NCBI GenBank assembly: GCA_903844215.1 | Contig: CAIMSP010000158.1 | Coordinates: 1-64,000, forward strand | Source of the DNA: an uncultured beta proteobacterium | Lineage (GTDB): Bacteria > Pseudomonadota > Gammaproteobacteria > Burkholderiales > Burkholderiaceae_C | Length of the DNA: 64,000 bases | Reading direction: 5' to 3' | Shown here: positions 116 to 64,000 of the stretch, piece after piece | Position numbering within the stretch: position 1 is the first letter of the stretch | Layout of the letters: each line of letters begins with the position of its first letter | The notes under the pieces: model-generated | What the model was told of the DNA's origin: nothing | Seen by the model: the letters and a program-made list of their open reading frames with translations, nothing else | Databases searched by the model: none | Program-made: the position numbers and the translations under genes

Positions 116-667
116 GCCAGCCATGAGTTTGTGGACCAGGTCGGCGGTGGTGCTGGCCTTGAACTTGCGCATCAAGCGCGCGCGGTAGATCTCGACGGTG
201 CGGTGGCTGATGGCGAGCAACTTGCCGATCTCCTTGCTGGTGAGCCCGTCGAGCAGGCTGGCCGCCACCTCGCGTTCGCGCGGCGTGAGTTCGGCTTTCA
301 CCGGGCGGCGCGCGGACAGGTCTTCAAAGCTCCAGATGCCGCTTTCGTGCGGCGCTTCGCGGTTCACCGCGCGTCCCGTCACATGGCACCAGAAGGTCTC
401 GCCCTTGAAGCGGCCATCCACGCGCTTCATGATGCGGTCGTCAGCGTAGCTGCCGTGGCGGTTGAGCAGCGGCGCGATGCGCGCACCGGTGCGCTCGTAC
501 TCGGCGGCGCTAGGGTAGAGAATCTGGAACGATTGCCCCAGCAACTGCTCGCGCGCGGCGCCGAACATTTCGCACACGCGCTGGTTGCAGTCCACCATGG
601 TGCGGTTGCGCGACAGCACCAGGCCCAGCGGAGCCAGATCGAAAGCGAGGCGGTAATCAATGTCCAT
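113..667 (-). CDS. PAS domain / LuxR-type HTH transcriptional regulator
   Basis: 184-residue protein. Residues about 5-115 look like a PAS sensor domain (LAFDLAPLGLVLSRNRTMVD, then CNQRVCEMFG). Residues about 125-170 form a LuxR/GerE helix-turn-helix (LTPREREVA, SKEIGKLLAISHRTVEIYR). There is no receiver domain, so it probably senses a ligand or redox state directly. It is divergent from the CoA-transferase genes, with only about 95 bp between them and a perfect ACTACGTAGT palindrome in the gap. It therefore probably controls that operon, and perhaps itself. The domain calls are firm; the target is inferred from position. Confidence 0.85.
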   Translation of the reverse strand: MDIDYRLAFDLAPLGLVLSRNRTMVDCNQRVCEMFGAAREQLLGQSFQILYPSAAEYERTGARIAPLLNRHGSYADDRIMKRVDGRFKGETFWCHVTGRAVNREAPHESGIWSFEDLSARRPVKAELTPREREVAASLLDGLTSKEIGKLLAISHRTVEIYRARLMRKFKASTTADLVHKLMAG

Positions 668-702
668 GGCGGCGGGGATTCAGGGGTTTTACTTTAGGAA
701 GA

Positions 703-712
703 ACTACGTAGT
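703..712. promoter_or_regulatory. Perfect 10-bp palindrome in the divergent promoter region
   Basis: ACTACGTAGT lies midway between the PAS-LuxR gene and the CoA-transferase operon. TACGTA-type palindromes are common targets of LuxR-family HTH proteins, so this is a candidate operator for the neighbouring regulator. No footprint or second copy supports it. Confidence 0.4.
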
Positions 713-761
713 GCATTAGGTAGTATCGTAACGCCATTGTTTGTTTTCAGGAGAACACCGA

Positions 762-1481
762 GTGAACAAGATTTATCCCAGCGCGGCTGCCGCGCTTGAC
801 GGCATCGTGCACGACGGCCAGTTGCTGGCCGTGGGCGGCTTTGGCCTGTGCGGCATTCCCGAGGCGCTGATCGACGCGCTGCGTGACAGCGCCGTGAAAG
901 ACCTCACGGTCATTTCCAACAACGCCGGGGTCGATGGTTTCGGCCTGGGCAAGCTGCTGGAGACGCGCCAGATCAAGCGCATGATCTCCAGCTACGTGGG
1001 TGAGAACAAGGAGTTCGAGCGCCAGTACCTGGCGGGCGAGCTGGAGTTGGAGTTCACGCCCCAGGGCACGCTGGCGGAAAAGCTGCGTGCCGGTGGCGCC
1101 GGCATCCCGGCCTTTTTCACGCGCACCGGCTACGGCACGCTCGTGGCCGAAGGCAAGGAGACGCGCGAGTTCGATGGCCACATGTACGTGATGGAGCGCG
1201 CGCTCTTGCCCGACGTGTCGCTGGTCAAGGCTTGGAAGGCCGACAAGAGCGGCAATCTGATCTTTCGCCGCACGGCGCGCAATTTCAATCCGGCCGTGGC
1301 CATGGCCGGTCGCATCACCGTGGTGGAAGTTGAAGAGATTGTCGAGACCGGCAGCTTCGACCCGGATGCCGTGCACCTGCCCGGCATCTACGTGACGCGC
1401 CTGGTGCTGAATGCGCACCCGGAAAAGCGCATCGAGAAAAGAACACTGACTGAGACGTCAACGAAGAAAGCGGGGGTTTGA
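762..1481 (+). CDS. scoA: 3-oxoacid CoA-transferase subunit A
   Basis: 239 residues. Alpha subunit of a succinyl-CoA:3-ketoacid (or related) CoA-transferase, which moves CoA between an acyl donor such as succinyl-CoA and a 3-oxoacid in ketone-body or aromatic catabolism. The family glycine-rich motif [10 protein letters not shown] is at residues 25-34. I chose the GTG at 762 because a good Shine-Dalgarno (AGGAGA, 749-754) precedes it; an in-frame TTG at 741 has none. The stop overlaps the region just before subunit B, so the two are translated together. ScoA, AtoD and PcaI cannot be told apart by eye, so the exact substrate is open. Confidence 0.92.
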
Positions 1482-1483
1482 TC

Positions 1484-2122
1484 ATGGCTTGGACACACGA
1501 CCAAATGGCAGCCAAGGCGGCCGAAGAACTGCAAGACGGCTTCTACGTCAACCTCGGCATTGGGCTGCCCACGCTGGTGGCCAACTTCGTCTCGCCCGAC
1601 ATCGAAGTCTGGCTGCAAAGCGAAAACGGCATGCTGGGCATCGGCGCGTTCCCCACCGAAGACGAGGTGGACGCGGACCTGATCAACGCCGGCAAGCAGA
1701 CCGTCACGACCATTCCGGGCTCCAGCATCTTTGGCAGCCACGACAGCTTTGCCATGATCCGCGGCGGCAAGATCAACCTGTCCATCCTGGGTGCGATGCA
1801 GGTCAGTGCCAGCGGCGATCTGGCCAACTGGATGATCCCCGGCAAGATGGTCAAGGGCATGGGCGGCGCCATGGATCTGGTGGGCGGCGTGAAAAACGTG
1901 GTGGTGCTGATGGAGCACGTCGCGAAAAAGAAGGACGGCAGCATCGACCTGAAGATCCTTCCCGCGTGCACGCTGCCGCTGACCGGCGTGGGTGTGGTGG
2001 ACCGCATCATCACCGATCTGGCGGTACTGGACATCACGCCGCATGGTCTGAAGGTGGTGGAGATGGCGCCGGGTGTGACGCGTGAAGAGCTGCAAGCCAA
2101 GACCGGCGTGCCGCTGCACTGA
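1484..2122 (+). CDS. scoB: 3-oxoacid CoA-transferase subunit B
   Basis: 212 residues. Beta subunit of the same enzyme. The catalytic glutamate that forms the gamma-glutamyl-CoA thioester is Glu47 in SENGMLGIG, and the GIGLPT loop is at residues 25-30. The ATG at 1484 lies 2 bp after the subunit A stop and has a purine-rich CGGGGG upstream, so it is preferred over a TTG at 1478. It forms a two-gene operon with subunit A. The next gene is convergent and ends 3 bp after this one, leaving almost no room for a terminator. Confidence 0.92.
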
Positions 2123-2125
2123 GCG

Positions 2126-4555
2126 TCAGGCGTTCAGGCCGAGCGGCTTGTCCGGCGCCTTGCGCGCCGCGAGCGCCGCCGGTCGAATCCAGTTGCCAAG
2201 CTTTGCCGCCAGTTCGCGGATGTCGCGCATCAGAAAGAGCATCGGCAGCAGTCGCCACGCGGCGACGGCCAGTGCCGCGGCGATCGGCAGGTAGCGCAGA
2301 CTCTGTGGCAGGAACAGGGGCAAAAACAACACGGCCAACAGCACAAAGATCGCCACGTCGCGGCTCAGCCAGCCGACATTTTGCGCGCGGCGTTCCATCA
2401 GTTGCTCCACCTTGGCCCGAAGCTGGTTCAGCACCGGTTTCGCGCGCGCCACGGTCTTGCTCATCTGCCGCCAGGGCAGGTCCGAGCGGCCCGAGGCGAT
2501 GATGCTTGAGACCAGGTCGAAATAGCGCTCGATGCAGGCCGCCAGCTCGCTGGCGCCGGCCGGCGCGATCAGGCTGGCGCGAGCGGCGCTTTGAATCTGG
2601 CTCAGCACATTCTGGAATTCAACGCCCATCGCCTTGCATTCATCCGTCTGGGCTTGAAGTGCGCGGGCGTTGGCCTGAAGTTGACGGTCTGCCGCTTTGC
2701 GCGCTTCGGGCAGCAGCGACTCCAGCACCAGCAGCTCGGCCGCCGCCATGGCTTGCGGGTCGCCCAGATCCGTCAGCCAGGGACAGTGCACGGCAAGGCC
2801 CACCAGGTCGGCCGTGAGGCGCGCCCGCAAACGTTGCGCCCAGACCGCGTCGTAGGCCACGGCCAGCAGGCGCGCATGCAGCTTGGCCAGGGCCGGGCGA
2901 TCGGGGTCGCTTTGGCCGTAGAGCAGTTGGTGCACATCGGGGTAGTCGTTCGCCGCCGCCGCAGGCGCCTTCGCCCGGATGCGCGCCAGCCCGTGCTCCC
3001 AGGCCTGGTCAAAGCCGTCGGCGGCGTCGCCCCAGCGCTGCACGATGTCGGCGCAGGCGCTGTTGCCGGCTTGCGCATAAGTCTGCAGCACCCGGTATTG
3101 GTGCAACTGGTGCAGCCAATGCTCGGCCTCGACATCGCCGTTCAAGGCCTCGTTGGCGTGCTGCAACACGGCCCGCAGGCCCAGCGGCTCGGCGCGCCAC
3201 ACGGCAGGAATGCCGGGCGCCAGTTGCAAGATCAACTGCAGCAACTGCACGTCCACCGGCAGGCGGCTGTCGTGGCGCAGATCGAGCAGCAGGCGCACCA
3301 CGTTTTGATCGACCTGCACGTCGCGAAACCAGGTCAGCAACAGCCCGTTGGCAATGTCGGCCACGCCCGCAGCCCAGTGGCGGCTCAGCGCCACGGCGAG
3401 CTGCTCGGGGCTGTAGCAGACGTCCGTGCCGAGCCGATAGGCCTGCTCGAAACGGTGTGCCACGCCCGCGTCCTGCGCTTCGGCCAGGCTGGGGTCGTGC
3501 GCCAGCCAGCGCCTGATCTCATCACCGCCCCAGCGCTGCTTGGGGTCGCGCACCAGCAGGCCGCGCAGCAGTTTCCTGAAGCTGCGATCCGTGACTTCGG
3601 TCAGGTCGATGCCGCGCGTGGTGAGGTGGTGCAGCACCACCGGTTCCGAGAGTCCGGCAAAAGGATGTTTGCCCAGCAGGGCTTCGAGCACGATGATGCC
3701 CAGCGCCCAGAAATCGGCCTTCACGTCGATGACGCCGGACAGGCTCTCGGGCGAGGCGTAGGGCAGGGTGCGCGCCACGCTGGTGAAGCGCTGCGTGGCT
3801 TCGAGCACCGAGGAGATGCCGAAATCGGTGAGCACCAGTTCCAGCGGCTGGGCCCGGCGCAGCAGGATGTTCTCGGGCTTGAGATCGCGGTGCAACAAGC
3901 CCAGCGCGTGCACCGCCTCAATCGCCGCCGCCGTCTGGCGCAGCACCTCGCGCAGCGCAGCGTCGGCCAAGGGGCCCAAGCGCAGCAGGTCGCGCAGGGA
4001 GCCGCTCGCGCAATACTCCATCAACTCGTAGGCATAGCCCTGCTCCGTGCCGGATTGCAGCACGCGCACGCAGTAGCTGGGATCGAGCTGCGCGATGCGC
4101 TGCAGCACCTCGGCCTTGGGTTGCAGGCCGTGGCGGTAGATCTTGGCCACCAGCGTGGGGCCGCCCGCCAGGCTTTGCACCAGCAGCAGTTCGGCTTCGG
4201 CGCCGGAACTGGCCAAGGGGCGCAGGATGCGGTACGCGTCCTTGAGCTTGCCCGGCAGGCTGATCAGGCTGTGCAGCTGATCGCCGCCTGCGCTGGTCTG
4301 CGCCAAGGGGCGGTCGCAGTAGAGGCAGGTCTTGGCGCCGGGCGGGTTGCTTTGGCCGCAGTCCTCGTGCGCGCAGACGCTGGCTGCTTGCGCCATCGCC
4401 ACGTCGATCGGCGCGGCCGCAACAACGGCCGCAGCGCCGCCTTGTCGGCTCACCAGATCGACCCCGGCGAGCAGCGCGCCGCAGGCGCAGCGCATCACCG
4501 GCGGCGCGTTCTCGGTGCCGCAACTGGGACAAAGGCGGTGCTCATCCACGCTCAT
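2126..4555 (-). CDS. Zinc-ribbon Ser/Thr protein kinase with C-terminal membrane segments
   Basis: 809 residues. The N-terminus has two short zinc-ribbon-like clusters (Cys9, 12, 23, 25 and Cys61, 66, 77, 80). A Hanks-type kinase domain spans about residues 108-360, with VAK Lys138, HRDLKPEN (Asp224, Asn229) and DFG Asp244. The glycine loop is degenerate (ASSGAEAE). A roughly 300-residue alpha-helical region of unknown function follows, then a hydrophobic hairpin near residues 720-775 that should anchor the protein in the membrane. It is the last gene of a four-gene operon; its ATG abuts the stop of the Fe-S protein gene with no gap. The key catalytic residues are present, so it is probably active. 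Its substrates are unknown, and the co-encoded AAA+ ATPase and coiled-coil protein are the obvious candidates. Confidence 0.88.
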   Translation of the reverse strand: MSVDEHRLCPSCGTENAPPVMRCACGALLAGVDLVSRQGGAAAVVAAAPIDVAMAQAASVCAHEDCGQSNPPGAKTCLYCDRPLAQTSAGGDQLHSLISLPGKLKDAYRILRPLASSGAEAELLLVQSLAGGPTLVAKIYRHGLQPKAEVLQRIAQLDPSYCVRVLQSGTEQGYAYELMEYCASGSLRDLLRLGPLADAALREVLRQTAAAIEAVHALGLLHRDLKPENILLRRAQPLELVLTDFGISSVLEATQRFTSVARTLPYASPESLSGVIDVKADFWALGIIVLEALLGKHPFAGLSEPVVLHHLTTRGIDLTEVTDRSFRKLLRGLLVRDPKQRWGGDEIRRWLAHDPSLAEAQDAGVAHRFEQAYRLGTDVCYSPEQLAVALSRHWAAGVADIANGLLLTWFRDVQVDQNVVRLLLDLRHDSRLPVDVQLLQLILQLAPGIPAVWRAEPLGLRAVLQHANEALNGDVEAEHWLHQLHQYRVLQTYAQAGNSACADIVQRWGDAADGFDQAWEHGLARIRAKAPAAAANDYPDVHQLLYGQSDPDRPALAKLHARLLAVAYDAVWAQRLRARLTADLVGLAVHCPWLTDLGDPQAMAAAELLVLESLLPEARKAADRQLQANARALQAQTDECKAMGVEFQNVLSQIQSAARASLIAPAGASELAACIERYFDLVSSIIASGRSDLPWRQMSKTVARAKPVLNQLRAKVEQLMERRAQNVGWLSRDVAIFVLLAVLFLPLFLPQSLRYLPIAAALAVAAWRLLPMLFLMRDIRELAAKLGNWIRPAALAARKAPDKPLGLNA

Positions 4556-5208
4556 CTAAGGCCTCCAGGAAACCTGGCTGAAGGCCAGACCGCGCTGCGC
4601 GCAGGACGCCTCCAGCGCCGCCATGTCGCCGCGCGCCGGAATGCCCACATACCAGACGCGGTCGCCGTCCACCATGGTCTGCATGCGCTTGTCTGCATCC
4701 TGCGCCAGCGCATCCACGTGCGCGCCGTAGCGGGCGCGGCCACGCTCGGACAGCGGCACCAAGGGCTGATTGGCCGAGCCGCGCCACACCTGGGTGAGCG
4801 GCCGGGCCTGCACAAAGGGCTCGGGGATGAGGGCGTCGAGCTGCGCCAGCAGGCGCGCGTGTTTTTTCTGCAGCGTGGCCAGCGCGTAGCCGCTGTAGCA
4901 CAGGATGTCGAAATCGAGCTGCTCGGCGCTGCGCCACTGCGCTAATCCCGCCAGCAGGGCGGCCAGCGCCTGGGGCTGGTCAAACGGCTCGCCACCGGAA
5001 ATCGTCACGCCATCGAGCTGGCTGGCGCTGGTCTGGCGGCACCAGGCGAGCAACTGCGCCACGCCCATCTCGCGCCCGGGGTCCCGGCTCCAGGTGTCTT
5101 GCGACACGCAGCCCTTGCAGCCAATGCTGCAACCCTGGACCCAGATGCCGATGCGCCGCCCCGGCCCCAGCACCGTCACCGGGAAGTGCGCCTTGTTGAT
5201 GGCGATCT

Positions 5209-5212
<4 letters not shown>
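4556..5212 (-). CDS. Radical-SAM / 4Fe-4S activase-like protein (NrdG-like fold)
   Basis: 218 residues from the ATG at 5212, which overlaps the AAA+ stop as ATGA; a GTG at 5218 is the alternative. The cysteine motif CxxxCxxC is at Cys28, 32 and 35 (QGCSIGCKGC), followed by a GGEP motif (ISGGEPFDQP) that binds the SAM amino group. This is the short radical-SAM architecture of anaerobic ribonucleotide reductase activases and related 4Fe-4S single-cluster proteins. No NrdD or other glycyl-radical enzyme is nearby, and the gene is locked between an AAA+ ATPase gene and a kinase gene. An NrdG role is therefore unlikely, and the substrate is unknown. Confidence 0.82.
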
Positions 5213-7043
<1,831 letters not shown>

Positions 7044-33496: not shown

Positions 33497-34180
33497 ATGA
33501 ACAACTGGACCCACATCCAATGCACCGCCTTTGAAGGTAGTCGCCGTATTGCCTCGGGCGCGCTGCATGAGGTTGCGCTGGTGGCCAAGCGCGCCGTTGA
33601 CCGCGCAGCGCACAGTGCAACACCCGCTTTGGTTTTGATCTTCAACGATGCCACGAGCGAAGTGATCGAGCTGGATTGGCGCGGTTCCAAAGAAGCGTTC
33701 AAGGCCCGACTGGATGTGATGCTGGGCCTGGGGGCGATCGCTGCGGGCCGCGATTCCTGCACGCAGGCGCAGGGCGCGCAGACCGAATTGCCCGCAGCCG
33801 ATGGCTTGGTCGCGGCGCGCGGCCCCGGGCGCCCCAAGCTGGGCGTGGTGGCGCGCGAGGTCACTTTGCTGCCGCGCCATTGGGAGTGGCTGAGCGGCCA
33901 GAGCGGCGGCGCCTCGGTGGCGCTGCGCAAACTGGTGGACGCTGCACGCCGTGCCTCGGAGGTGCAAGACCGCATGCGCCACGCCAGCGCCGTAGGCTAC
34001 AAGTTCATGTCCACGCTGGCCGGCCATGAACCGGGGTTTGAAGAGGCCAGTCGCGCGCTCTTTGCCGGTGATAAGGTTCGATTCGAGGCGCAGATTGCAT
34101 CCTGGCCGATCGATGTCCAGATGCACCTGAAAAAGATTCTCGCTGACGCCTTCGTGCCGTCCGATGCCAACGCCAACTGA
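33497..34180 (+). CDS. DUF2239 family protein
   Basis: 227 residues. It matches DUF2239 by CTAFEGSRRIASGALHEVAL at the N-terminus and GRPKLGVVAREVTLLPRHWE in the middle, a segment that looks like an RHH/CopG-type DNA-binding stretch followed by WLSGQSGGASVALRKLV. It is probably a small DNA-binding regulator. The stop lies 7 bp before the MATE start chosen here, suggesting an operon. Confidence 0.85.
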   Translation: MNNWTHIQCTAFEGSRRIASGALHEVALVAKRAVDRAAHSATPALVLIFNDATSEVIELDWRGSKEAFKARLDVMLGLGAIAAGRDSCTQAQGAQTELPAADGLVAARGPGRPKLGVVAREVTLLPRHWEWLSGQSGGASVALRKLVDAARRASEVQDRMRHASAVGYKFMSTLAGHEPGFEEASRALFAGDKVRFEAQIASWPIDVQMHLKKILADAFVPSDANAN

Positions 34181-34187
34181 TCCGTCC

Positions 34188-35570
34188 ATGAACAAGAATT
34201 CGCCCACGCCCACGAGCGCCGCCAAAGCGCCGACCGCCGTTCTGTGGAAGAGCTATCTCGCCTTTCTCGCGCCGATGATCCTGAGCAACTTTCTGCAGTC
34301 CATCTCGGGCACGGCGAACAACATCTACCTTGGGCAGATGCTGGGCGTGCAGGCCATGGCGTCGGTCTCGGCCTTCTTTCCGGTGCTGTTCTTCCTGATC
34401 GCCTTCATGATCGGACTGGGCTCGGGTGCGTCCGTGCTGATCGGTCAGGCCTGGGGCGCGAAGGAGCGCGAGCGCGTCAAAGCCATTGCCGGCACCACAC
34501 TCATGATGGGCCTGAGCGCAGGCCTGCTGGTCGCGCTGTTTGGCGGCTCGTTTGCGCAGGTCATGCTGGCCGCTCTGGGCACGCCGGCGGACATCCTGCC
34601 GGGTGCCACGGCCTATGCGCGGGTGATGCTGCTGGGCGCGCCGCTGATCTTCGTCTTCCTGCTGACGACGTCGATGCTGCGCGGCGTGGGCGACACCACC
34701 ACGCCGCTGTTGACGCTGCTCATCGCCATCGGCGTGAGCCTGCTGCTGACGCCGGCGCTGATCCAGGGTTGGCTGGGCTTGCCGCGCCTGGGCGTGGCCA
34801 GCGGCGCCTACGCCGCAGCCATGTCCTACGCGAGCGCGCTCGCCTGGCTGGCCTGGTATCTGCGGCGCAAAAAGCACGTGCTGGCGCCCACCGCCGCGTC
34901 CCTGAAATACCTCACCATCAACCGCGCCCTGCTGCAAAAAGTGCTGCGCATCGGATTGCCCACCGTGCTGTCCATGACCACCGTTTCCATCGCCGAAATC
35001 GCCGTGCTGTTTTTGGTGAACCGCTATGGCTCCCAGGCCACGGCCGCCTATGGCGCGGTGAACCAGATCGTCTCTTACGTGCAGTTCCCGGCGATCTCCA
35101 TCGCCATCACGGCCTCCATCCTGGGCGCGCAGGCCATCGGCGCGGGCAGGGTGCACACGCTGGGCCACATCGCGCGCACCGGCATCGTGCTGAACCTGGC
35201 GCTGACGGGCTCGCTGGTGCTGCTGGGCTACCTGTTCTCGCGCAGCATCCTGGGCTTGTTCATCACCGACGCTGCGGTCGTGGACCTGGCGCAAACGCTG
35301 CTGCACATCATGCTCTGGAGCAGCGTCATCATGGGCATGTCGATGGTGCTGTCGGGTCTGATGCGCGCCAGCGGCACGGTGCTGGCGCCGACCGCGATTG
35401 GCATGCTGGCCATCGCCGGCATCGAGATCCCCGTGGCCTGGGCCTTGAGCCAGCGCTACGGCCTGAACGGCATCTGGGCCGCCTATCCGGTGGCGTTTCT
35501 GGCGATGCTGGGAATGCAAACCGCCTACGACCGGCTGGTTTGGAAGAAGAGGCCGATTCGCCGGCTGTGA
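34188..35570 (+). CDS. MATE-family multidrug/Na+ antiporter
   Basis: 460 residues from the ATG at 34188 (MNKNSPTPTS); an ATG at 34164 would overlap DUF2239. Twelve membrane helices and the MATE repeats are visible (ISGTANNIYLGQMLGVQAMA, GSGASVLIGQAWGAKERE, TSMLRGVGDTTTP). Members export cationic drugs in exchange for Na+ or H+. The last 231 bp (35340-35570) recur at 36295-36525 with four differences, and the last 112 bp recur again at 37078-37189. This full copy has TAT and GAC where both fragments have GAT and TAC. Confidence 0.93.
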   Translation: MNKNSPTPTSAAKAPTAVLWKSYLAFLAPMILSNFLQSISGTANNIYLGQMLGVQAMASVSAFFPVLFFLIAFMIGLGSGASVLIGQAWGAKERERVKAIAGTTLMMGLSAGLLVALFGGSFAQVMLAALGTPADILPGATAYARVMLLGAPLIFVFLLTTSMLRGVGDTTTPLLTLLIAIGVSLLLTPALIQGWLGLPRLGVASGAYAAAMSYASALAWLAWYLRRKKHVLAPTAASLKYLTINRALLQKVLRIGLPTVLSMTTVSIAEIAVLFLVNRYGSQATAAYGAVNQIVSYVQFPAISIAITASILGAQAIGAGRVHTLGHIARTGIVLNLALTGSLVLLGYLFSRSILGLFITDAAVVDLAQTLLHIMLWSSVIMGMSMVLSGLMRASGTVLAPTAIGMLAIAGIEIPVAWALSQRYGLNGIWAAYPVAFLAMLGMQTAYDRLVWKKRPIRRL

Positions 35571-35614
35571 AAGGAGCCGCGGGCTGGCTTTCGCCGCTCC
35601 TGCCCGTGCGCTGA

Positions 35615-35947
35615 CTACGCGTGAGCTGCGGTTTGCAGCACCTCGGTGGCCCATTGATTCAGGCTCTTGCCGGAGGCTTGTGCCGCAATCAGGGCAGCCC
35701 CGTGGACTTCGGATGGCACGCGCAGCATGAGTTTGCCAGACGCCGGTTTTTCCGGCTTCACGCCTTGTTGCTTGCAGTCTGCAAGGAAGTCGTCAACCGC
35801 GGCTCCAAAGGCATCACGCAATTCAGCTACTGTTTCGCCGTGGAAACTGATCATGGCGCGCAGACCCAACACGCGGCCAACGAATATGTTGTCGCGGTCA
35901 TCAAATTCAATGCGGGCGCTATAGCCCTTGTGGTTCATGGTGTTCAT
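35615..35947 (-). CDS. hicB: HicB antitoxin
   Basis: 110 residues. The N-terminal degenerate RNase-H-like fold (GYSARIEFDDRDNIFVGRVL, MISFHGETVAELRDAF) and C-terminal RHH segment (GKLMLRVPSEVHGAALIAAQ, SLNQWATEVL) identify HicB. It overlaps hicA by 4 bp and reads toward the MATE gene, ending 44 bp past its stop. Confidence 0.92.
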   Translation of the reverse strand: MNTMNHKGYSARIEFDDRDNIFVGRVLGLRAMISFHGETVAELRDAFGAAVDDFLADCKQQGVKPEKPASGKLMLRVPSEVHGAALIAAQASGKSLNQWATEVLQTAAHA

Positions 35948-36198
35948 GGTTCAACCCCGACTCGTTCAAGCAGTTCGCGAGCCTCTTCGACCTGGTAGCG
36001 TTTTGCTTCTTTTCCTGGATGCGGGCGATGGCATCGCCACTGTTCTCCCGCAAGAATGATCTTGACCCGTGAGCCTTCACGTTCATGAACTTCACCACCC
36101 AGACCAACAATCAAATTCTCGACGTCGGAAAATACGATCGACGGTGACGTTGGCCGGGTAAAGATGGCTCGCAAAGTCTTGCGCTGCTTGGTATTCAC
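35944..36198 (-). CDS. hicA: HicA toxin (mRNA interferase)
   Basis: 84 residues from a GTG at 36198 (VNTKQRKTLRAIF), which matches the family start better than the upstream frame to 36234. The double-stranded RNA-binding-like fold has the active-site His in the WRCHRPHPGKEAKR motif. Toxin first, antitoxin second, as usual for hicAB. Confidence 0.9.
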   Translation of the reverse strand: MNTKQRKTLRAIFTRPTSPSIVFSDVENLIVGLGGEVHEREGSRVKIILAGEQWRCHRPHPGKEAKRYQVEEARELLERVGVEP

Positions 36199-36225
36199 GC
36201 CCGTGATACTAGCGGAAAGTTCCCT

Positions 36226-36254
36226 TATATGCAATCACAAAGTGATTGCATATA
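36226..36254. promoter_or_regulatory. Perfect palindrome upstream of hicAB
   Basis: TATATGCAATCAC-AAA-GTGATTGCATATA, 13-bp perfect arms, 28 bp upstream of the hicA start. This is very probably the HicB operator. It is AT-rich, unlike the surrounding DNA. Confidence 0.75.
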
Positions 36255-36294
36255 GACTGAAATCTTGCCAGTAGCAAAGCAATGAAATGGCTGC

Positions 36295-36525
36295 TCGATG
36301 GTGCTGTCGGGTCTGATGCGCGCCAGCGGCACGGTGCTGGCGCCGACCGCGATGGGCATGCTGGCCATCGCCGGCATCGAGATCCCCGTGGCCTGGGCCT
36401 TGAGCCAGCGTTACGGCCTGAACGGCATCTGGGCCGCCGATCCGGTGGCGTTTCTGGCGATGCTGGGAATGCAAACCGCCTACTACCGGCTGGTTTGGAA
36501 GAAGAGGCCGATTCGCCGGCTGTGA
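36295..36525 (+). pseudogene. Second copy of the MATE gene 3' end (77 codons)
   Basis: 231 bp matching 35340-35570 at 227 positions, including the stop codon. It begins abruptly after unrelated AT-rich DNA and has no promoter or start of its own. The reading frame has stayed open, which points to a recent duplication. It lies between the hicAB and relBE-type modules. Confidence 0.9.
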
Positions 36526-36537
36526 CGGGGCTGGTCG

Positions 36538-36828
36538 CTACGTCTGACGGCCTGGGAATTCGCGTCGCGCATGGACGACAGTGACCACCTCAATGTACTC
36601 TGCCGAAACGCGGTAAAAAATGACGTAGTTGGGATGCGTGACTATTTCGCGCAAGCCAGGGATTCTCTGACTGGATTTGTACAAATAGGGATGCTCTGCC
36701 GCATGCTCCAAGTCGGTTTGCATTTGTGCAAAAAGGCGATCTGCAGCCGGTTCGTTTCTTTCGCTGATGAAGTCAAGAATTTGCTGCAAATCAGCCCGGG
36801 CCGATGCGCGCCATTCAATCGGTAACAC
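36538..36828 (-). CDS. RelE/ParE-family toxin
   Basis: 96 residues from a GTG at 36828 (VLPIEWRASARADLQQILDF), chosen over an upstream in-frame ATG inside the antitoxin gene. RelE/ParE fold signs: the N-terminal RASARADL helix start, a central PNYVIFYRVS strand and the closing VVTVVHARREFP. It overlaps the antitoxin 3' end by 14 bp and ends 12 bp past the stop of the second MATE copy. Confidence 0.88.
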   Translation of the reverse strand: MLPIEWRASARADLQQILDFISERNEPAADRLFAQMQTDLEHAAEHPYLYKSSQRIPGLREIVTHPNYVIFYRVSAEYIEVVTVVHARREFPGRQT

Positions 36829-37006
36829 AGGCCTTCTTCTTTGCATCCAGCAGGGCATGCATCTCGGCCATCACTTGATCGTGCGCAAAGTTGGGGCGCG
36901 TGTCATTGAGGCTGGCCTCAACTTTGGCCTTCAACCAAGACAGGTGGCTGGCTTCCTGCTCCAGTGTGTCGAACTCGGAGACGATAGGGGAAAGCGGTTC
37001 GCTCAT
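36815..37006 (-). CDS. RelB/ParD-like antitoxin
   Basis: 63 residues, acidic, with a helix-rich sequence (SHLSWLKAKVEASLNDTRP, DQVMAEMHALLDAKKK) like the toxin-binding part of ParD/RelB antitoxins. A good ribosome site (AGGAGGT) precedes the ATG at 37006. It is the first gene of the pair with the RelE/ParE toxin. Confidence 0.82.
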   Translation of the reverse strand: MSEPLSPIVSEFDTLEQEASHLSWLKAKVEASLNDTRPNFAHDQVMAEMHALLDAKKKACVTD

Positions 37007-37077
37007 TGGGACCTCCTGTCAAGCTTTTCACGGGCACCAGTTTACTCCTCAAAGGCAAGTTTTATCGGCGCACCGGT

Positions 37078-37189
37078 CGGCCTGAACGGCATCTGGGCCG
37101 CCGATCCGGTGGCGTTTCTGGCGATGCTGGGAATGCAAGCCGCCTACTACCGGCTGGTTTGGAAGAAGAGGCCGATTCGTCGGCTGTGA
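37078..37189 (+). pseudogene. Third copy of the MATE gene 3' end (37 codons)
   Basis: 112 bp matching the last 112 bp of the MATE gene, with the stop codon. It differs from the second copy at two positions and from the intact gene at four. It shares GAT/TAC variants and the post-stop CGGGG with the second copy, so these two are closest. It is followed by DNA holding another TA remnant. Confidence 0.9.
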
Positions 37190-37225: not shown

Positions 37226-37519
37226 GGAGCGGCCGTTTTGGCCGCATGGGTTGGCGAGGTGGAAGAACGCCACCGCTTGACTTTGGAGGGGATGGCAGAG
37301 CTCACCGCCGGTCGAGTTGTGGATCAAGCGGACGTGGAGGGTTGGGCGGTTAGCCGCGGGCCGACAAGCCCCCCGGTGTGTTCCACAAAGGTGAAACTGA
37401 GGTGGTCCAACGAAGCCGTCGCCGAGCTTGCGCGGCTGCACGATCTTCTGGCAGCGATGAAACCGACAGCCGCTGCGCGTGCGGCCCTAGCATTGGCGCT
37501 GGCCCCGACAAATTCTTGA
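37226..37519 (+). pseudogene. Decayed ParD/ParE-like toxin-antitoxin remnant
   Basis: One open frame reads as the tail of an antitoxin (VEERHRLTLEGMAELTAGRV, then DVEGWAV) joined directly to the first 40 residues or so of a ParE/RelE-type toxin (KVKLRWSNEAVAELARLHDL). In intact pairs these are two genes with a short overlap. Here the antitoxin N-terminus and most of the toxin are missing and the separating stop is lost, so this is a scar. It reads on the plus strand. Confidence 0.6.
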
Positions 37520-37683
37520 TCGCCCGCCGTGTGGATGCTTCAGCGGCTGCGCACACCGGCAAAGAAGTGAGGTTCTTTCACACTGCCGTTGCAATCGCGC
37601 CACGAATATTGAGCGATCTGAGTCTTCTAAGGGATTGTCCTGATAGGGCTAGGATTTCTCCGATGCTACATTTCAGCTATCAA

Positions 37684-37699
37684 TTGGGAACGATTCCAA
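37684..37699. promoter_or_regulatory. LacI-type operator upstream of the TonB-dependent receptor
   Basis: TTGGGAACGATTCCAA, an imperfect palindrome about 90 bp before the receptor start. It matches TTGGAATGGATTCCAA at 43371-43386 in 13 of 16 positions. It is the likely binding site of the LacI-family regulator encoded in the cluster. The rest of 37520-37789 holds no gene. Confidence 0.65.
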
Positions 37700-37789
37700 C
37701 ATGATGACCGCCAAAGTACGTCAGAGCTGCGTGTCAGGGTCGTGACATTTCACGCAGCATTTTTACACAGAGCCCGTAGGAGACACACC

Positions 37790-40561
37790 ATGAAGAGTTC
37801 CGCCCCCCAGCGCAGCCAGAACACCGTTCGGCCACGCACCGCCTTGCGCATCAGCCCCATCGCTGCTGCCTGTTCCACCCTGGTGTTTGCCATGGGTGCT
37901 GCCTACGCGCAAACCGCGACGCCGCCAGCGGCTGCACTGGACACCGTGGTGGTGACCGGTCTGCGCCACTCGATCGAGAGTTCGATTGCGACCAAGAGGA
38001 ATTCCGACTCTATCGTTGAGGCCATTTCTGCTGAAGACATCGGCAAGTTGCCAGACGTGAGCATCGCCGAAGCCCTGTCACGCTTGCCCGGCTTGGCCGG
38101 CCAACGCGTCGGCGGTCGTGCACAGGTGATCTCGATCCGTGGTCTGTCGCCCGACTTCGCCGGTACCTTGCTGAACGGCCGGGAACAGGTCTCCACTGGT
38201 GATAACCGTGGCGTTGAATATGATCAGTTCCCTTCCGAATTGATCAATGCCGCCGTCGTGTACAAGACGCCTGACGCCTCCATCATCGGCCAGGGCTTGT
38301 CCGGCACGGTCGATCTGAAGACCATCCGTCCGCTGGACATGCGCGGCCGTCAGGTCTCGATGAATGCCCGCGTTGAATCCAATTCGAATGGCACCTTGAA
38401 TGCCAATACCAGCACCAAGGGCAACCGCTTCAGCATCTCCTATGTCGACCAGTTCGCCGATAACACCGTGGGCGTGGCTCTGGGTTTTGCGCACCTAGAT
38501 ACGCCGACGCAGGAACTGCACTACAAGGCATGGGGATTCTCGAAATACGGAGATCCTTGCAATGCCGGTTGGGGTTGTGGCGGTGTCACGGGCGTGCCCG
38601 TTGGGACCAGCTTCTTGAATGGCTTTGAAGCCGAGGCCGTGTCGCGCAGCCAGAAGCGTGATGGCCTGATGGGCGTGCTTGAATTCAAACCGAGCAAGGA
38701 TGTGCACAGCACGGTTGACCTGTTCTATTCCAAGTTCAAGCAGAACGAAACCATGCGAGGTTTGATGGGCGGCTTTGGCGACAACTGGAATGGCGTTGCC
38801 GGCTCCAAATTCTCCAATATCACGACGACCAATGTCGAGTCGGGTCCGTTGATTACCAAGGCCCAGATCGACAACAACGTGATGGTGGTGCGCAATGACC
38901 TGAATACGCGTGACGATGAACTCAAATCCATCGGCTGGAACACCAAGGCCAAACTCACCGACAAGTGGACCGGCACCGCCGACGTCAACTACTCGCGCGC
39001 CGATCGCAGCGAAAACGTGATCGAGTCTTACGCTGGCCCTTACGCTGGCGCAAACAAGGCCGTCGGTACGTTCAACGTCAATCTGCCTACCGGTTCCGCT
39101 TTCCCAAGCCTGGTGCCCACACTGAGCTACTCAGATGCGGCGACCGTCAAGCTGAGCGACCCTGCGGTGTGGGGTCACGATGCACTGTGGAAAAAGCCCA
39201 AAATGAGCGACGAGATCAATGCCTTGCGCCTGGAAGCCAAGCGTGATCTGGACGGTTTTTTCAGCAGCGTGGACCTGGGGTTGAACTATTCGACCCGGAG
39301 CAAATTCCGCGAGATGAACGAACTCCAGGCCAACCTGAATAATGGCCGCGCTCCGGTTGTTGTGTCGGCCGATCTGCTGCAACCGTCCACGCCGCTGGCC
39401 TTTGCCGGCATCCCCGGTGTGCTGGCCTATGACGTGATGGGCGTGCTGAACAAGTACTACACAATTGCGCCGCAAGCCTTGGATCAGGTGTACAACCGCA
39501 ACTACAGCGTGAAAGAAAAGGTGTCGACCGGCTATGCCAAGTTCGGTATCGATACTGAATTGGGCAAGGTGCCGGTGCGCGGTAACGTGGGCGTGCAATT
39601 GGTGCACACGGACCAGAGTTCCACCGGCCTGACCCGCGTGAACAATGTCGATTCGGCGTTCACGAAGGGCACGACCTATGACGACATTCTGCCCAGCCTG
39701 AACCTGAACTTCGACCTCGGAAGCGACCGCTATGTGCGCACAGGCGTGGCCAAGACCATGGCCCGTGGTCGCATGGACGATATGAAGGCGAGCGCGTCAG
39801 CGAGTGTCGATGCCACCAAGCGCACCTGGAGTGGCGAGGGCGGAAACCCGGACCTGCTCCCTTGGCGCGCTACGGCGTTCGACCTGTCGTTCGAGCAGTA
39901 CTTTGGCAAGCGCAGCTATGTGGCCGTGGCCGGTTTCTACAAGAATCTGGACACCTACATCTACACGCAAACCAACAACAACTACGACTTCACTGGAGTC
40001 GTGAACTCCAGCGCTGTCGTGCCTTCCAGCAATATCGGCACCTTTAAGACGCCCATGAATGGCAAGGGTGGCAGCATGTCCGGTGTTGAGTTGAGTGGTT
40101 CGCTGGAAGCGACCTTGCTGAGCCAGGCCTTGGATGGTTTCGGTGTGCAGGCCAGCACTTCCTTCACGGAGAGCAAGATCCACCCGGACGGTCCTGATGC
40201 CCCTACGCGTCTGCCGGGCCTGTCCAAAACGGTGGCCAACCTAACGCTGTACTACGAGAAGAACGGCTTCTCAGCGCGCGTCAGCGAGCGCTATCGTTCG
40301 TCGTTCCGCGGCGAAATCAACGGCCTGCACAACGCGCGCTCTTTCACCGATATCGGTGCAGACAAGCAAACGGACATGCAACTTGGCTATGAAATTCAGG
40401 CTGGTACCTACAAGGGCCTGTCGGTGTTGCTGCAGTTCAACAACGTGACCAACTCGCCTTATGTGACGACGACCGGCGACGGTTCAGGCAAGGTGACAGG
40501 ACCTCTGGAGTACAACACCTACGGTCGTCAGATGTTGCTCGGTGTGACTTACAAGATGTAA
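37790..40561 (+). CDS. TonB-dependent receptor (carbohydrate type)
   Basis: 923 residues from the ATG at 37790, preceded by GTAGGAG. Signal peptide (STLVFAMGAAYAQ), N-terminal plug (DTVVVTGLRHSIESSIATKR, DIGKLPDVSIAEALSRLPG, VISIRGLSPDFAGTLLNGR), then a 22-strand barrel ending in an aromatic-rich strand (NTYGRQMLLGVTYKM). This subfamily sits in glycan-use loci of Xanthomonas and Caulobacter relatives and imports oligosaccharides across the outer membrane. It is the first gene of the beta-glucoside cluster and has its own LacI-type operator. A strong terminator follows. Confidence 0.93.
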   Translation: MKSSAPQRSQNTVRPRTALRISPIAAACSTLVFAMGAAYAQTATPPAAALDTVVVTGLRHSIESSIATKRNSDSIVEAISAEDIGKLPDVSIAEALSRLPGLAGQRVGGRAQVISIRGLSPDFAGTLLNGREQVSTGDNRGVEYDQFPSELINAAVVYKTPDASIIGQGLSGTVDLKTIRPLDMRGRQVSMNARVESNSNGTLNANTSTKGNRFSISYVDQFADNTVGVALGFAHLDTPTQELHYKAWGFSKYGDPCNAGWGCGGVTGVPVGTSFLNGFEAEAVSRSQKRDGLMGVLEFKPSKDVHSTVDLFYSKFKQNETMRGLMGGFGDNWNGVAGSKFSNITTTNVESGPLITKAQIDNNVMVVRNDLNTRDDELKSIGWNTKAKLTDKWTGTADVNYSRADRSENVIESYAGPYAGANKAVGTFNVNLPTGSAFPSLVPTLSYSDAATVKLSDPAVWGHDALWKKPKMSDEINALRLEAKRDLDGFFSSVDLGLNYSTRSKFREMNELQANLNNGRAPVVVSADLLQPSTPLAFAGIPGVLAYDVMGVLNKYYTIAPQALDQVYNRNYSVKEKVSTGYAKFGIDTELGKVPVRGNVGVQLVHTDQSSTGLTRVNNVDSAFTKGTTYDDILPSLNLNFDLGSDRYVRTGVAKTMARGRMDDMKASASASVDATKRTWSGEGGNPDLLPWRATAFDLSFEQYFGKRSYVAVAGFYKNLDTYIYTQTNNNYDFTGVVNSSAVVPSSNIGTFKTPMNGKGGSMSGVELSGSLEATLLSQALDGFGVQASTSFTESKIHPDGPDAPTRLPGLSKTVANLTLYYEKNGFSARVSERYRSSFRGEINGLHNARSFTDIGADKQTDMQLGYEIQAGTYKGLSVLLQFNNVTNSPYVTTTGDGSGKVTGPLEYNTYGRQMLLGVTYKM

Positions 40562-63180: not shown

Positions 63181-63540
63181 GACGTTTGTATCTTATTGAT
63201 TTATAAATAAAAATTAAATGTTTGTTGCAAAAATTCTATCTGGCTACCCATCTAGCTACCCAAATGAGGGTAGGTGCGAAATTCACGTTCGGCAATTTCC
63301 AATCAATATCTACAATCTTCGCCTTTGAAGTACGCTTTTGCTGCATCCATGGCGCGATCTTCGATGTGCAATGATTGGGCGACAAATCAAGATTTCGGAT
63401 TTTGAATCGGGTACCGAATCTTTTCGTTTAGCTATTCGCTTTTGGCCAATCTTCTGGCACTAGTAGTTCGTTCCATCAATAACATTACAAAATAGCGGAT
63501 AATCGCCATGATCTTTTTTCAACTCTTGATGGGAGTGATT
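63181..63540. other. AT-rich intergenic stretch before the transposase
   Basis: About 360 bp of clearly lower GC than the rest of the window, with short repeats of GGCTACCC / TAGCTACCC near 63242-63262. There is no credible gene; a minus-strand frame from 63460 is the shadow of the transposase. The left end of the insertion sequence probably lies near 63460-63500 (TTCGTTCCATCAATAACATT), but the terminal repeat cannot be confirmed without the other end. Confidence 0.5.
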
Positions 63541-64000
63541 ATGGCCAGAAAGACAAAGCGTGCGGCATTGGTGTTGACGACTGAGCACCGAACGATGCTC
63601 ACTGAACTTGCGGGATCGAGAACAGCACCGATACGCGAGGTGGAGCGAGCCAAGATTTTGGTGGGCTACGCTGATGGGGCGACGATCAGCGACCTGATGC
63701 GTCGAATCGGAGTTGGGCGCCCGATGATCTACAAGTGCATTGACAAAGCGTTGGCCGCCGGAGTAGGTGCAGGGCTCAAGGATACCTACCACCGTCCCCA
63801 CGAGCCAGAGATCACCGACGAAGCAAAGGCGTGGGTGGTCAGCCTGGCGTGCACCAAGCCCACCGATCACGGACTGGCAGCCGAACTGTGGTCCATTTCG
63901 GCGTTGGCTCGCTTCATCAGCGAACATGCTGCGCAAGCCGGGCATCCGCGCCTGACGCAGGCCGGCAAGAGTACCGTGTGGCGAATCCTGAATGAGCATG
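63541..64000 (+). CDS. IS630-family transposase, 5' part (runs off the window)
   Basis: At least 153 codons, open to the last base, starting MARKTKRAALVLTTEHR. The N-terminal HTH (REVERAKILVGYADGATISD, RRIGVGRPMIYKCI) and the next region (DHGLAAELWSISALARFI, GKSTVWRILNEH) match IS630/Tc1-mariner-type transposases of bacteria. The DDE catalytic domain must lie beyond the window. The codon use and the AT-rich flank are foreign in character. Confidence 0.82.
   Translation, partial: MARKTKRAALVLTTEHRTMLTELAGSRTAPIREVERAKILVGYADGATISDLMRRIGVGRPMIYKCIDKALAAGVGAGLKDTYHRPHEPEITDEAKAWVVSLACTKPTDHGLAAELWSISALARFISEHAAQAGHPRLTQAGKSTVWRILNEH

Follow-up and report, generated by a model that had tools for sequence, protein, structure and literature searches.

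Nested copies of a MATE gene 3' end separated by toxin-antitoxin modules in a beta-proteobacterial genome, and comparable loci at other genes

Insertion of restriction-modification (R-M) genes with long target duplications of variable length has been reported (Nobusato et al. 2000; Furuta et al. 2010, as cited in passages of PMC3031569 and PMC3874152). In Microcystis aeruginosa, a ParE/ParD-like module that follows the MaOC1 gene is enclosed by two direct repeats of 152 bp with the same sequence, according to a passage of PMC7935541. Also, passages of PMC3240628 relate that 56 of 60 Lac-negative Escherichia coli clones gave a product diagnostic of duplication in the polymerase chain reaction and that 14 sequenced clones carried duplications of 109-950 bp, attributed to partial degradation, ligation and single crossover of linear DNA; the products of homology-facilitated illegitimate recombination (HFIR) are described there as generally having lost recipient DNA, the deletion being roughly as long as the insert. 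Here we describe a stretch of 64,000 nucleotides (the window) from contig C158 of a beta-proteobacterial genome (4.05 Mb in 187 contigs, 93% complete), in which two predicted type II toxin-antitoxin (TA) modules stand between nested copies of the 3' end of a MATE efflux transporter gene. TA modules between gene 3'-end copies are not described in passages of PMC3031569, PMC3874152, PMC2654758, PMC7935541, PMC4615327 and PMC3240628, a statement that holds for those passages and makes no claim on the printed record, and a literature search returned no paper that combined 'toxin-antitoxin' with 'homology-facilitated illegitimate recombination'.

The order of the locus is MATE gene, hicAB, 231-bp MATE end, RelE/ParE-PaaA2 pair, 112-bp MATE end, decayed RHH/ParE pair, receptor leader and receptor gene. 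Its central features are:

34164 to 35570, forward strand: full-length MATE efflux transporter gene (PF01554, TIGR00797)
35340 to 35570, forward strand: MATE 3' end copy 1 (W1), within the full-length gene (direct-repeat search, alignment)
35615 to 35947, reverse strand: HicB antitoxin (PF05534, E 6.8e-17)
35944 to 36234, reverse strand: HicA toxin, start codon uncertain (PF07927, E 1.4e-07)
36295 to 36525, forward strand: MATE 3' end fragment 2 (W2), 231 bp including the stop codon (repeat search, alignment)
36538 to 36858, reverse strand: ParE/RelE-family toxin (PF05016, E 4.7e-16; TIGR02385)
36815 to 37006, reverse strand: PaaA2/RelB-type antitoxin (PF21217, NF050103)
37078 to 37189, forward strand: MATE 3' end fragment 3 (W3), 112 bp including the stop codon (repeat search, alignment)

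The first-pass annotation of the window had reported that the last 231 bp of the MATE gene recur at 36295-36525 with four mismatches and the last 112 bp at 37078-37189, and alignment returned the same coordinates and counts. Base by base, the first repeat pair (35340-35570/36295-36525) is 98% identical, with its mismatches at 35399, 35456, 35484 and 35529, while in the second pair (35459-35570/37078-37189) W3 differs from W1 at 35484, 35520, 35529 and 35561. All three copies retain the stop codon. W2 and W3 match over 117 bp, including five common bases (CGGGG) 3' of the stop, and the variants that they were said to share to the exclusion of the intact gene are indeed present, at 35484 and 35529. 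The assignment of hicAB to the first gap and of a relBE-type pair to the second is borne out by domain matches: HicA and HicB domains occur in adjoining genes (Pfam), and a ParE/RelE toxin adjoins a PaaA2/RelB antitoxin (Pfam, NCBIfam), so that both are predicted type II systems. As had also been noted, the two modules are convergent with the MATE gene and end just past a MATE stop, their nearest stop codons ending 45 and 13 bp beyond the preceding one.

A relative with an unoccupied site gives the polarity of this arrangement. The nearest relatives of the window MATE protein come from three beta-proteobacterial metagenome-assembled genomes (MAGs), followed, as the nearest named, by Rhodoferax and other Comamonadaceae. 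In genome G003, the leader of the receptor gene follows a MATE gene of 87% identity at a distance of no more than 20 bp, and neither a TA module nor a MATE fragment lies between them; the TA modules were therefore inserted between MATE and receptor, rather than lost from G003. On the receptor side the window contains:

37585 to 37789, forward strand: conserved leader of the TonB-dependent receptor gene (one match per genome in 5 genus genomes)
37790 to 40561, forward strand: TonB-dependent receptor gene (PF07715, TIGR01782)

Relatives carrying MATE fragments without TA modules, or a transposase or integrase behind the duplication, had been named at first pass as findings that would speak against arrival of the modules by recombination. 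A copied MATE 3' end was found in none of 79 other MATE loci (80 were fetched, of which 79 extend 200 bp or more downstream; BLAST, E 0.001), where the matches were scattered, 17-61 bp long and never involved the gene 3' end, which rules out end duplication as a habit of MATE genes. No integrase or transposase domain was found in the MATE, TA and neighbouring genes scanned between 22.8 and 46.9 kb, a scan that did not take in every open reading frame (ORF).

The same architecture recurs beyond the MATE gene. A search for TA modules behind duplicated gene ends in other genomes, which the first-pass annotation had proposed, recovered them beside xth-like, metK, TctC-type and aldehyde dehydrogenase genes. 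At locus L125, 116 bp of an exonuclease III-like gene (PF03372), which we take to be xth, are repeated beyond hicAB; at L311, 207-217 bp of metK are repeated beyond ParDE, and likewise in G449, the metK architecture being present in the separate assemblies G438 and G449 (97% identity). At L289, 46 bp of a TctC-type receptor gene recur after a toxin gene of the ParE family and a VapC-like ORF, presumably VapC, which was named without a domain search. The closest parallel to the window, with three nested ends and two TA modules, is L438/L511, where an aldehyde dehydrogenase gene is followed by a zeta-toxin gene, a 66-bp copy of the gene end, a BrnT gene (5128-5364) and a 501-bp copy of the gene end; a small ORF 3' of BrnT has no Pfam match. 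In the window's own genome, hicAB lies between a nucleotidyltransferase gene (PF01909) and a 79-bp copy of its 3' end (92%) at L169, with gene and fragment in a less simple order.

The region of L169/L519 (G000:C97) is dense in TA genes, with nucleotidyltransferase, hicAB, XRE-like (by eye) and zeta toxin genes, and 79-bp and 181-bp repeats lie between the modules. A 221-bp metK 3' end at L520 (G213:C30:12000-19379) follows a TctC/Bug-like ORF (by eye) and adjoins a ParE gene, and no full metK was found within the 7.4 kb fetched; in G213 the metK end and the TA module may have travelled as a unit.

The origin of the two gene ends could be compared at xth. Genome G450 has the insert and G451 lacks it, their upstream sequences being 97.3% identical over 1499 bp, and G451 represents the empty site. 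Across the stop codon, 368 bp made up of the G450 fragment and the flank downstream of it are 99.2% identical to G451, whereas for the final 245 bp of the full-length gene of G450 the identity to G451 is only 94.3%. Both the G450 fragment and the G451 gene end in GGCTTGACCCTGTGAG; the full-length G450 copy ends in GACTTCGCGCTATGAG, one base off the end of the gene in G164, a genome that has the same insert (85% identity over 1758 bp). Since fragment and flank match the TA-less genome and the full-length end matches the G164 type, the alignments identify the fragment as the resident end and the terminus of the full-length gene as sequence of another lineage, which by the same comparison appears to have come with the module. 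The metK gene of G449 agrees with this, its fragment being closer to the metK of G303 (89.9% identity) than to the full-length gene of the same locus (80.6%). Because the two copies match different lineages, those at xth and at the G449 metK are, as judged from sequence, not fresh local duplications. Comparable empty-site searches found no homologous flank past the fragment in 11 genomes for metK and in 2 genomes for the TctC-type gene.

These observations lead us to favour, with moderate confidence, a reading in which the modules arrive joined to a donor 3' end by one homologous crossover, the old end being displaced beyond the insert. Foreign DNA would bring a small addiction module together with the 3' end of a gene already resident, the gene end being the only homology. 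A single RecA-type crossover in that end would then give the resident gene the donor terminus and strand the old one past the insert, and the window's own full-length MATE end would likewise have been imported. The other side of the insert would be an illegitimate joint, most simply if the incoming molecule was trimmed and closed on itself before the crossover, and the length of the repeat would be set by the homology left after trimming. In nine repeat pairs the repeat ends at offsets of 0, +5, +2, -16, +9, -1, about -6 to -16, 0 and -1 bp from the stop codon, approximate values read from BLAST borders, as expected if homology between alleles ceases with the coding sequence and different DNA follows downstream. 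Repeat length varies even at one gene, with 231 and 117 bp in the window and 501-522 and 66 bp in G387. The nested MATE array would reflect two rounds of entry, either both at the gene or the second of them at the first scar. If the insert looped out between the repeats, the original gene would be regained, but cells that lose a working TA pair are expected to be poisoned, and repeat-flanked TA inserts may therefore persist where other inserts vanish. The first-pass annotation had proposed repeated arrival of TA modules by recombination anchored in the MATE 3' end, each leaving the former end as a scar. Insertion stands, on the evidence of G003, as does the resident scar at the analogous xth locus, where the full-length copy ends differently; HFIR, offered as an example of the mechanism, is not borne out in that form, as reported HFIR gives deletions of about the size of the insert (passages of PMC3240628) and the loci here show duplication.

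The order of arrival in the window was approached through the six variable sites among the three MATE ends, polarised against 17 of the 80 MATE relatives. At 35484 the state of both fragments is derived with respect to all 17, and at 35529 it is that of the full-length gene that is derived with respect to 17/17. Position 35456 is altered only in fragment 2; 35520 is altered among the copies only in fragment 3, one relative having the same state, and the sites altered at 35399 (fragment 2) and 35561 (fragment 3) vary among relatives. Fragments 2 and 3 thus group against the full gene on one or two informative characters only. The pattern fits entry of hicAB first and of relBE then into the scar, and it also fits a later arrival of hicAB bringing a foreign MATE end. 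Since it sets the two fragments apart from the gene, the scar rather than the gene may have been the entry point of the second module. A tyrosine to aspartate change present in both fragments, where 17/17 relatives are invariant, was dropped as proof of a prior pseudogene, the full-length gene having such a change of its own at another 17/17-invariant position.

The occurrence of flanking repeats was surveyed around TA genes in samples that are parts of the matches listed: HicA and relatives of the window RelE at family level (n=117, the window itself and two duplicates having been dropped), ParE at order level (n=90) and BrnT at order level (n=30). A direct repeat of at least 45 bp and at least 80% identity flanking the TA hit within 1.5 kb was found in 11/117, 6/90 and 4/30 loci, respectively (21/237 in total). 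As classed by eye after the data were seen, with samples from different taxonomic levels, these comprise six actual or possible integron attC arrays, six protein-gene 3' ends (L125, L129, L169, L289, L311 and L438), four tRNA 3' ends (L147, L297, L433 and L442), three other target copies (L141, L183 and L342) and two unclear cases (L240 and L315). What we take to be the two attC core motifs are both present in L112, L131, L178 and the right copy of L431, with L117 and L124 only probable attC; the copy at L129 lacks the final 16 bp of the gene, stop codon included. At L342/L523 (G423:C1), an 84-bp copy of a gene 5' start, the gene presumably being cas1-like, stands on the far side of a ParE-family module.

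The tRNA cases were set apart from the gene-end class because the tRNA-Phe ends of G276 resemble an integrase-type cassette array. There (L516, G276:C1:1882500-1889500, positions 431-3695), five copies of a tRNA-Phe 3' end with its terminator are separated by one- or two-gene cassettes, one of them brnTA, and the distal copies have a similar left part that is absent from the tRNA gene; the arrangement resembles an integron-like array of cassettes with a tRNA gene as its base. At L515 (G335), brnTA likewise lies between two tRNA-Phe ends.

Among controls, the same repeat test was positive at 4 of 446 positions taken from the 80 MATE loci, in 3 of 70 HxlR loci and in 0 of 30 GNAT loci. TA loci exceed all controls taken together for any repeat (21/237 against 7/546, p 8.6e-07), with the six attC-like loci left out (15/231, p 0.00018) and for protein-gene 3' ends (6/237 against 1/546, p 0.0038).

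Several points weigh against the donor-end crossover or against its tie to TA genes. The excess holds against core-gene-locus positions and fails against 100 accessory-gene loci, whether for any repeat (21/237 against 3/100, p 0.064), without attC-like loci (p 0.29), for gene or tRNA 3' ends (10/237 against 1/100, p 0.18) or for protein-gene 3' ends (6/237 against 1/100, p 0.68). Also, at the accessory locus L286 a gene 3' end is copied past an HxlR regulator and an oxidoreductase-like ORF with no TA genes. Given L286 and the lack of a significant excess over accessory loci, the insertion route is probably general and not restricted to TA modules, whose link may lie in retention. At the G438 metK, the fragment is 88.5% identical to G303 and 88.0% to its own gene. 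The G450 xth open frame is without 87 bp (29 codons), in frame, that G451, G164 and G452 possess; the site lies at about 1499 of L413 (G450:C83) and reflects a deletion or an assembly error. The G450 fragment is resident throughout, so a crossover in long homology borne on a circle would have to fall at the extreme left edge of the fragment. G451 could have lost the insert by loop-out, the ends differing in origin either way, and G450 could have gained it through ordinary homologous exchange from a carrier, which would keep the two-origin ends and dispense with the circle. Finally, the window copies are 98% identical, leaving room for local duplication.

Local duplication of the target is the alternative that survives best, although we consider it rather unlikely. 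The TA genes would have been inserted at or near the stop codon by staggered-break repair or replication template switching, with 46-522 bp of upstream sequence copied; in the window, hicAB would have come first (231-bp duplication) and relBE would have followed into the fragment (117-bp duplication). The near-identity of the window copies and their grouping, (gene,(fragment 2, fragment 3)), are in keeping with this, as are the derived state at 35484 and the five post-stop bases common to both fragments, and R-M genes are reported to insert with long, variable target duplications on the order of 100 bp (passages of PMC3874152 and PMC3031569). A single target copy as the source of both repeats is contradicted at xth and at the G449 metK, where the copies match different lineages, the G438 metK giving near-equal identities; local duplication moreover leaves unexplained why the repeats end near the stop codon.

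Site-specific recombination, in which non-autonomous TA cassettes with a gene 3' end as att site would be moved by an integrase supplied in trans and would accrete in tandem, is quite improbable. Displacement of the resident 3' end is the usual product at integrase target sites, and the G276 array offers a five-copy precedent, with one- and two-gene cassettes that include brnTA and distal copies similar at their left. Against it stand the integrase-free scan of window genes with the coverage given above, the inconstant length of the repeat at one gene (231 and 117, or 501-522 and 66), the two fragment left ends of the window, which by eye have no common sequence, and target genes that are unrelated.

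Chimeric assembly of a fragmented genome can scarcely be credited, even with 187 contigs and several close relatives that are MAGs, since the longest perfect stretches are only 59 bp (W1/W2), 61 bp (W2/W3) and 35 bp (W1/W3), making an artefact at the window repeats unlikely, and the architecture recurs in separate assemblies such as G438 and G449.

Other features of the window lie within or next to the array:

35612 to 36266, reverse strand: hicAB module common to G002:C24, 92% DNA identity with other flanks (alignment)
36230 to 36250, no strand: palindrome TGCAATCAC-AAA-GTGATTGCA (sequence; one change in the relative G002, alignment)
37238 to 37519, forward strand: decayed third TA module (76% DNA identity to G000:C69:1619-1908)

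The palindrome is a probable, putative HicAB operator. The decayed module, overlooked at first pass, consists of an antitoxin lacking the N-terminus, which continues into a toxin lacking the C-terminus; its counterpart at G000:C69:1619-1908, in the same genome as the window, encodes a full-length RHH antitoxin and ParE toxin, and the decayed copy itself has no Pfam match at E 0.001. The region ahead of the receptor carries TA genes in at least three of five genus genomes. The leader has another position in G002 and G004, where a sugar ABC cluster precedes it: at the leader, G002 has the hicAB related to that of the window, around which no self-repeat was found, and G004 has a TacA/GNAT pair and a PaaA2-type antitoxin remnant adjoining a DDE transposase gene, presumably of IS630 type. 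For G001, the ORF list, used without a domain search, showed no recognisable TA pair upstream of the receptor. The leader stands behind MATE in two genomes and near the sugar ABC cluster in three, indicating that the cluster has been rearranged among genus genomes; spread of the leader over receptor paralogues was ruled out by its single match in each of the five. At 63460-64000 of the window, the reverse strand resembles by eye the G004 transposase gene, and the listed ORF has no Pfam match.

A gene-end scar would be a readable record of how chromosomal TA modules arrive where no mobile element is nearby. It would supply a search rule (a gene, then a TA module, then the same gene's 3' end once more), a direction (the full-length end new, the fragment resident) and an order of arrival, and makes retention of repeat-flanked inserts by addiction testable in a laboratory strain. 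We tentatively raise the possibility of a transposase-free mobile form of TA module, with a host gene 3' end, carried from the start or acquired, as its only targeting sequence, host recombination as its means of entry, addiction opposing loop-out, and nested scars as its trace. If true, such modules would hand a gene a new end, spread between strains by the same homology and, through repeated visits, leave nested scars recording the order of arrival.

Compared with known systems, the loci share with integrative elements in gene 3' ends and with integron arrays, as generally understood, the tandem modules and the repeats at borders, and TA cassettes between attC-like sites did appear in the survey; the loci differ in lacking an integrase in the window genes scanned and in having repeats of unrelated coding sequence and variable length. 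As in the Microcystis case, a TA pair lies between long direct repeats, but there the first repeat starts 14 bp past the stop and is not a gene 3' end, and the passage of PMC7935541 mentions neither nesting nor origin. The resemblance to the R-M insertions, as these are presented in the passages cited, extends to an addiction module with no linked mobile element, direct repeats on the order of 100 bp from the target and an empty site in a relative (G003 for the window, G451 for xth); here, in contrast, the modules are type II TA systems, the repeats are gene 3' ends and nested, and the xth copies differ in origin. HFIR, as outlined in PMC3240628, likewise has homology on one side and an illegitimate joint on the other, and the other-lineage end of the full-length gene at xth may reflect such an anchor, but in the window and at xth there is duplication in place of deletion. 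The E. coli single-crossover product of the same source is, like the loci here, an insert bordered by a duplicated part of the homologous end, although it was a laboratory construct with a selectable marker and no TA genes; by analogy, a trimmed and re-ligated single crossover would fit the present loci better than HFIR.

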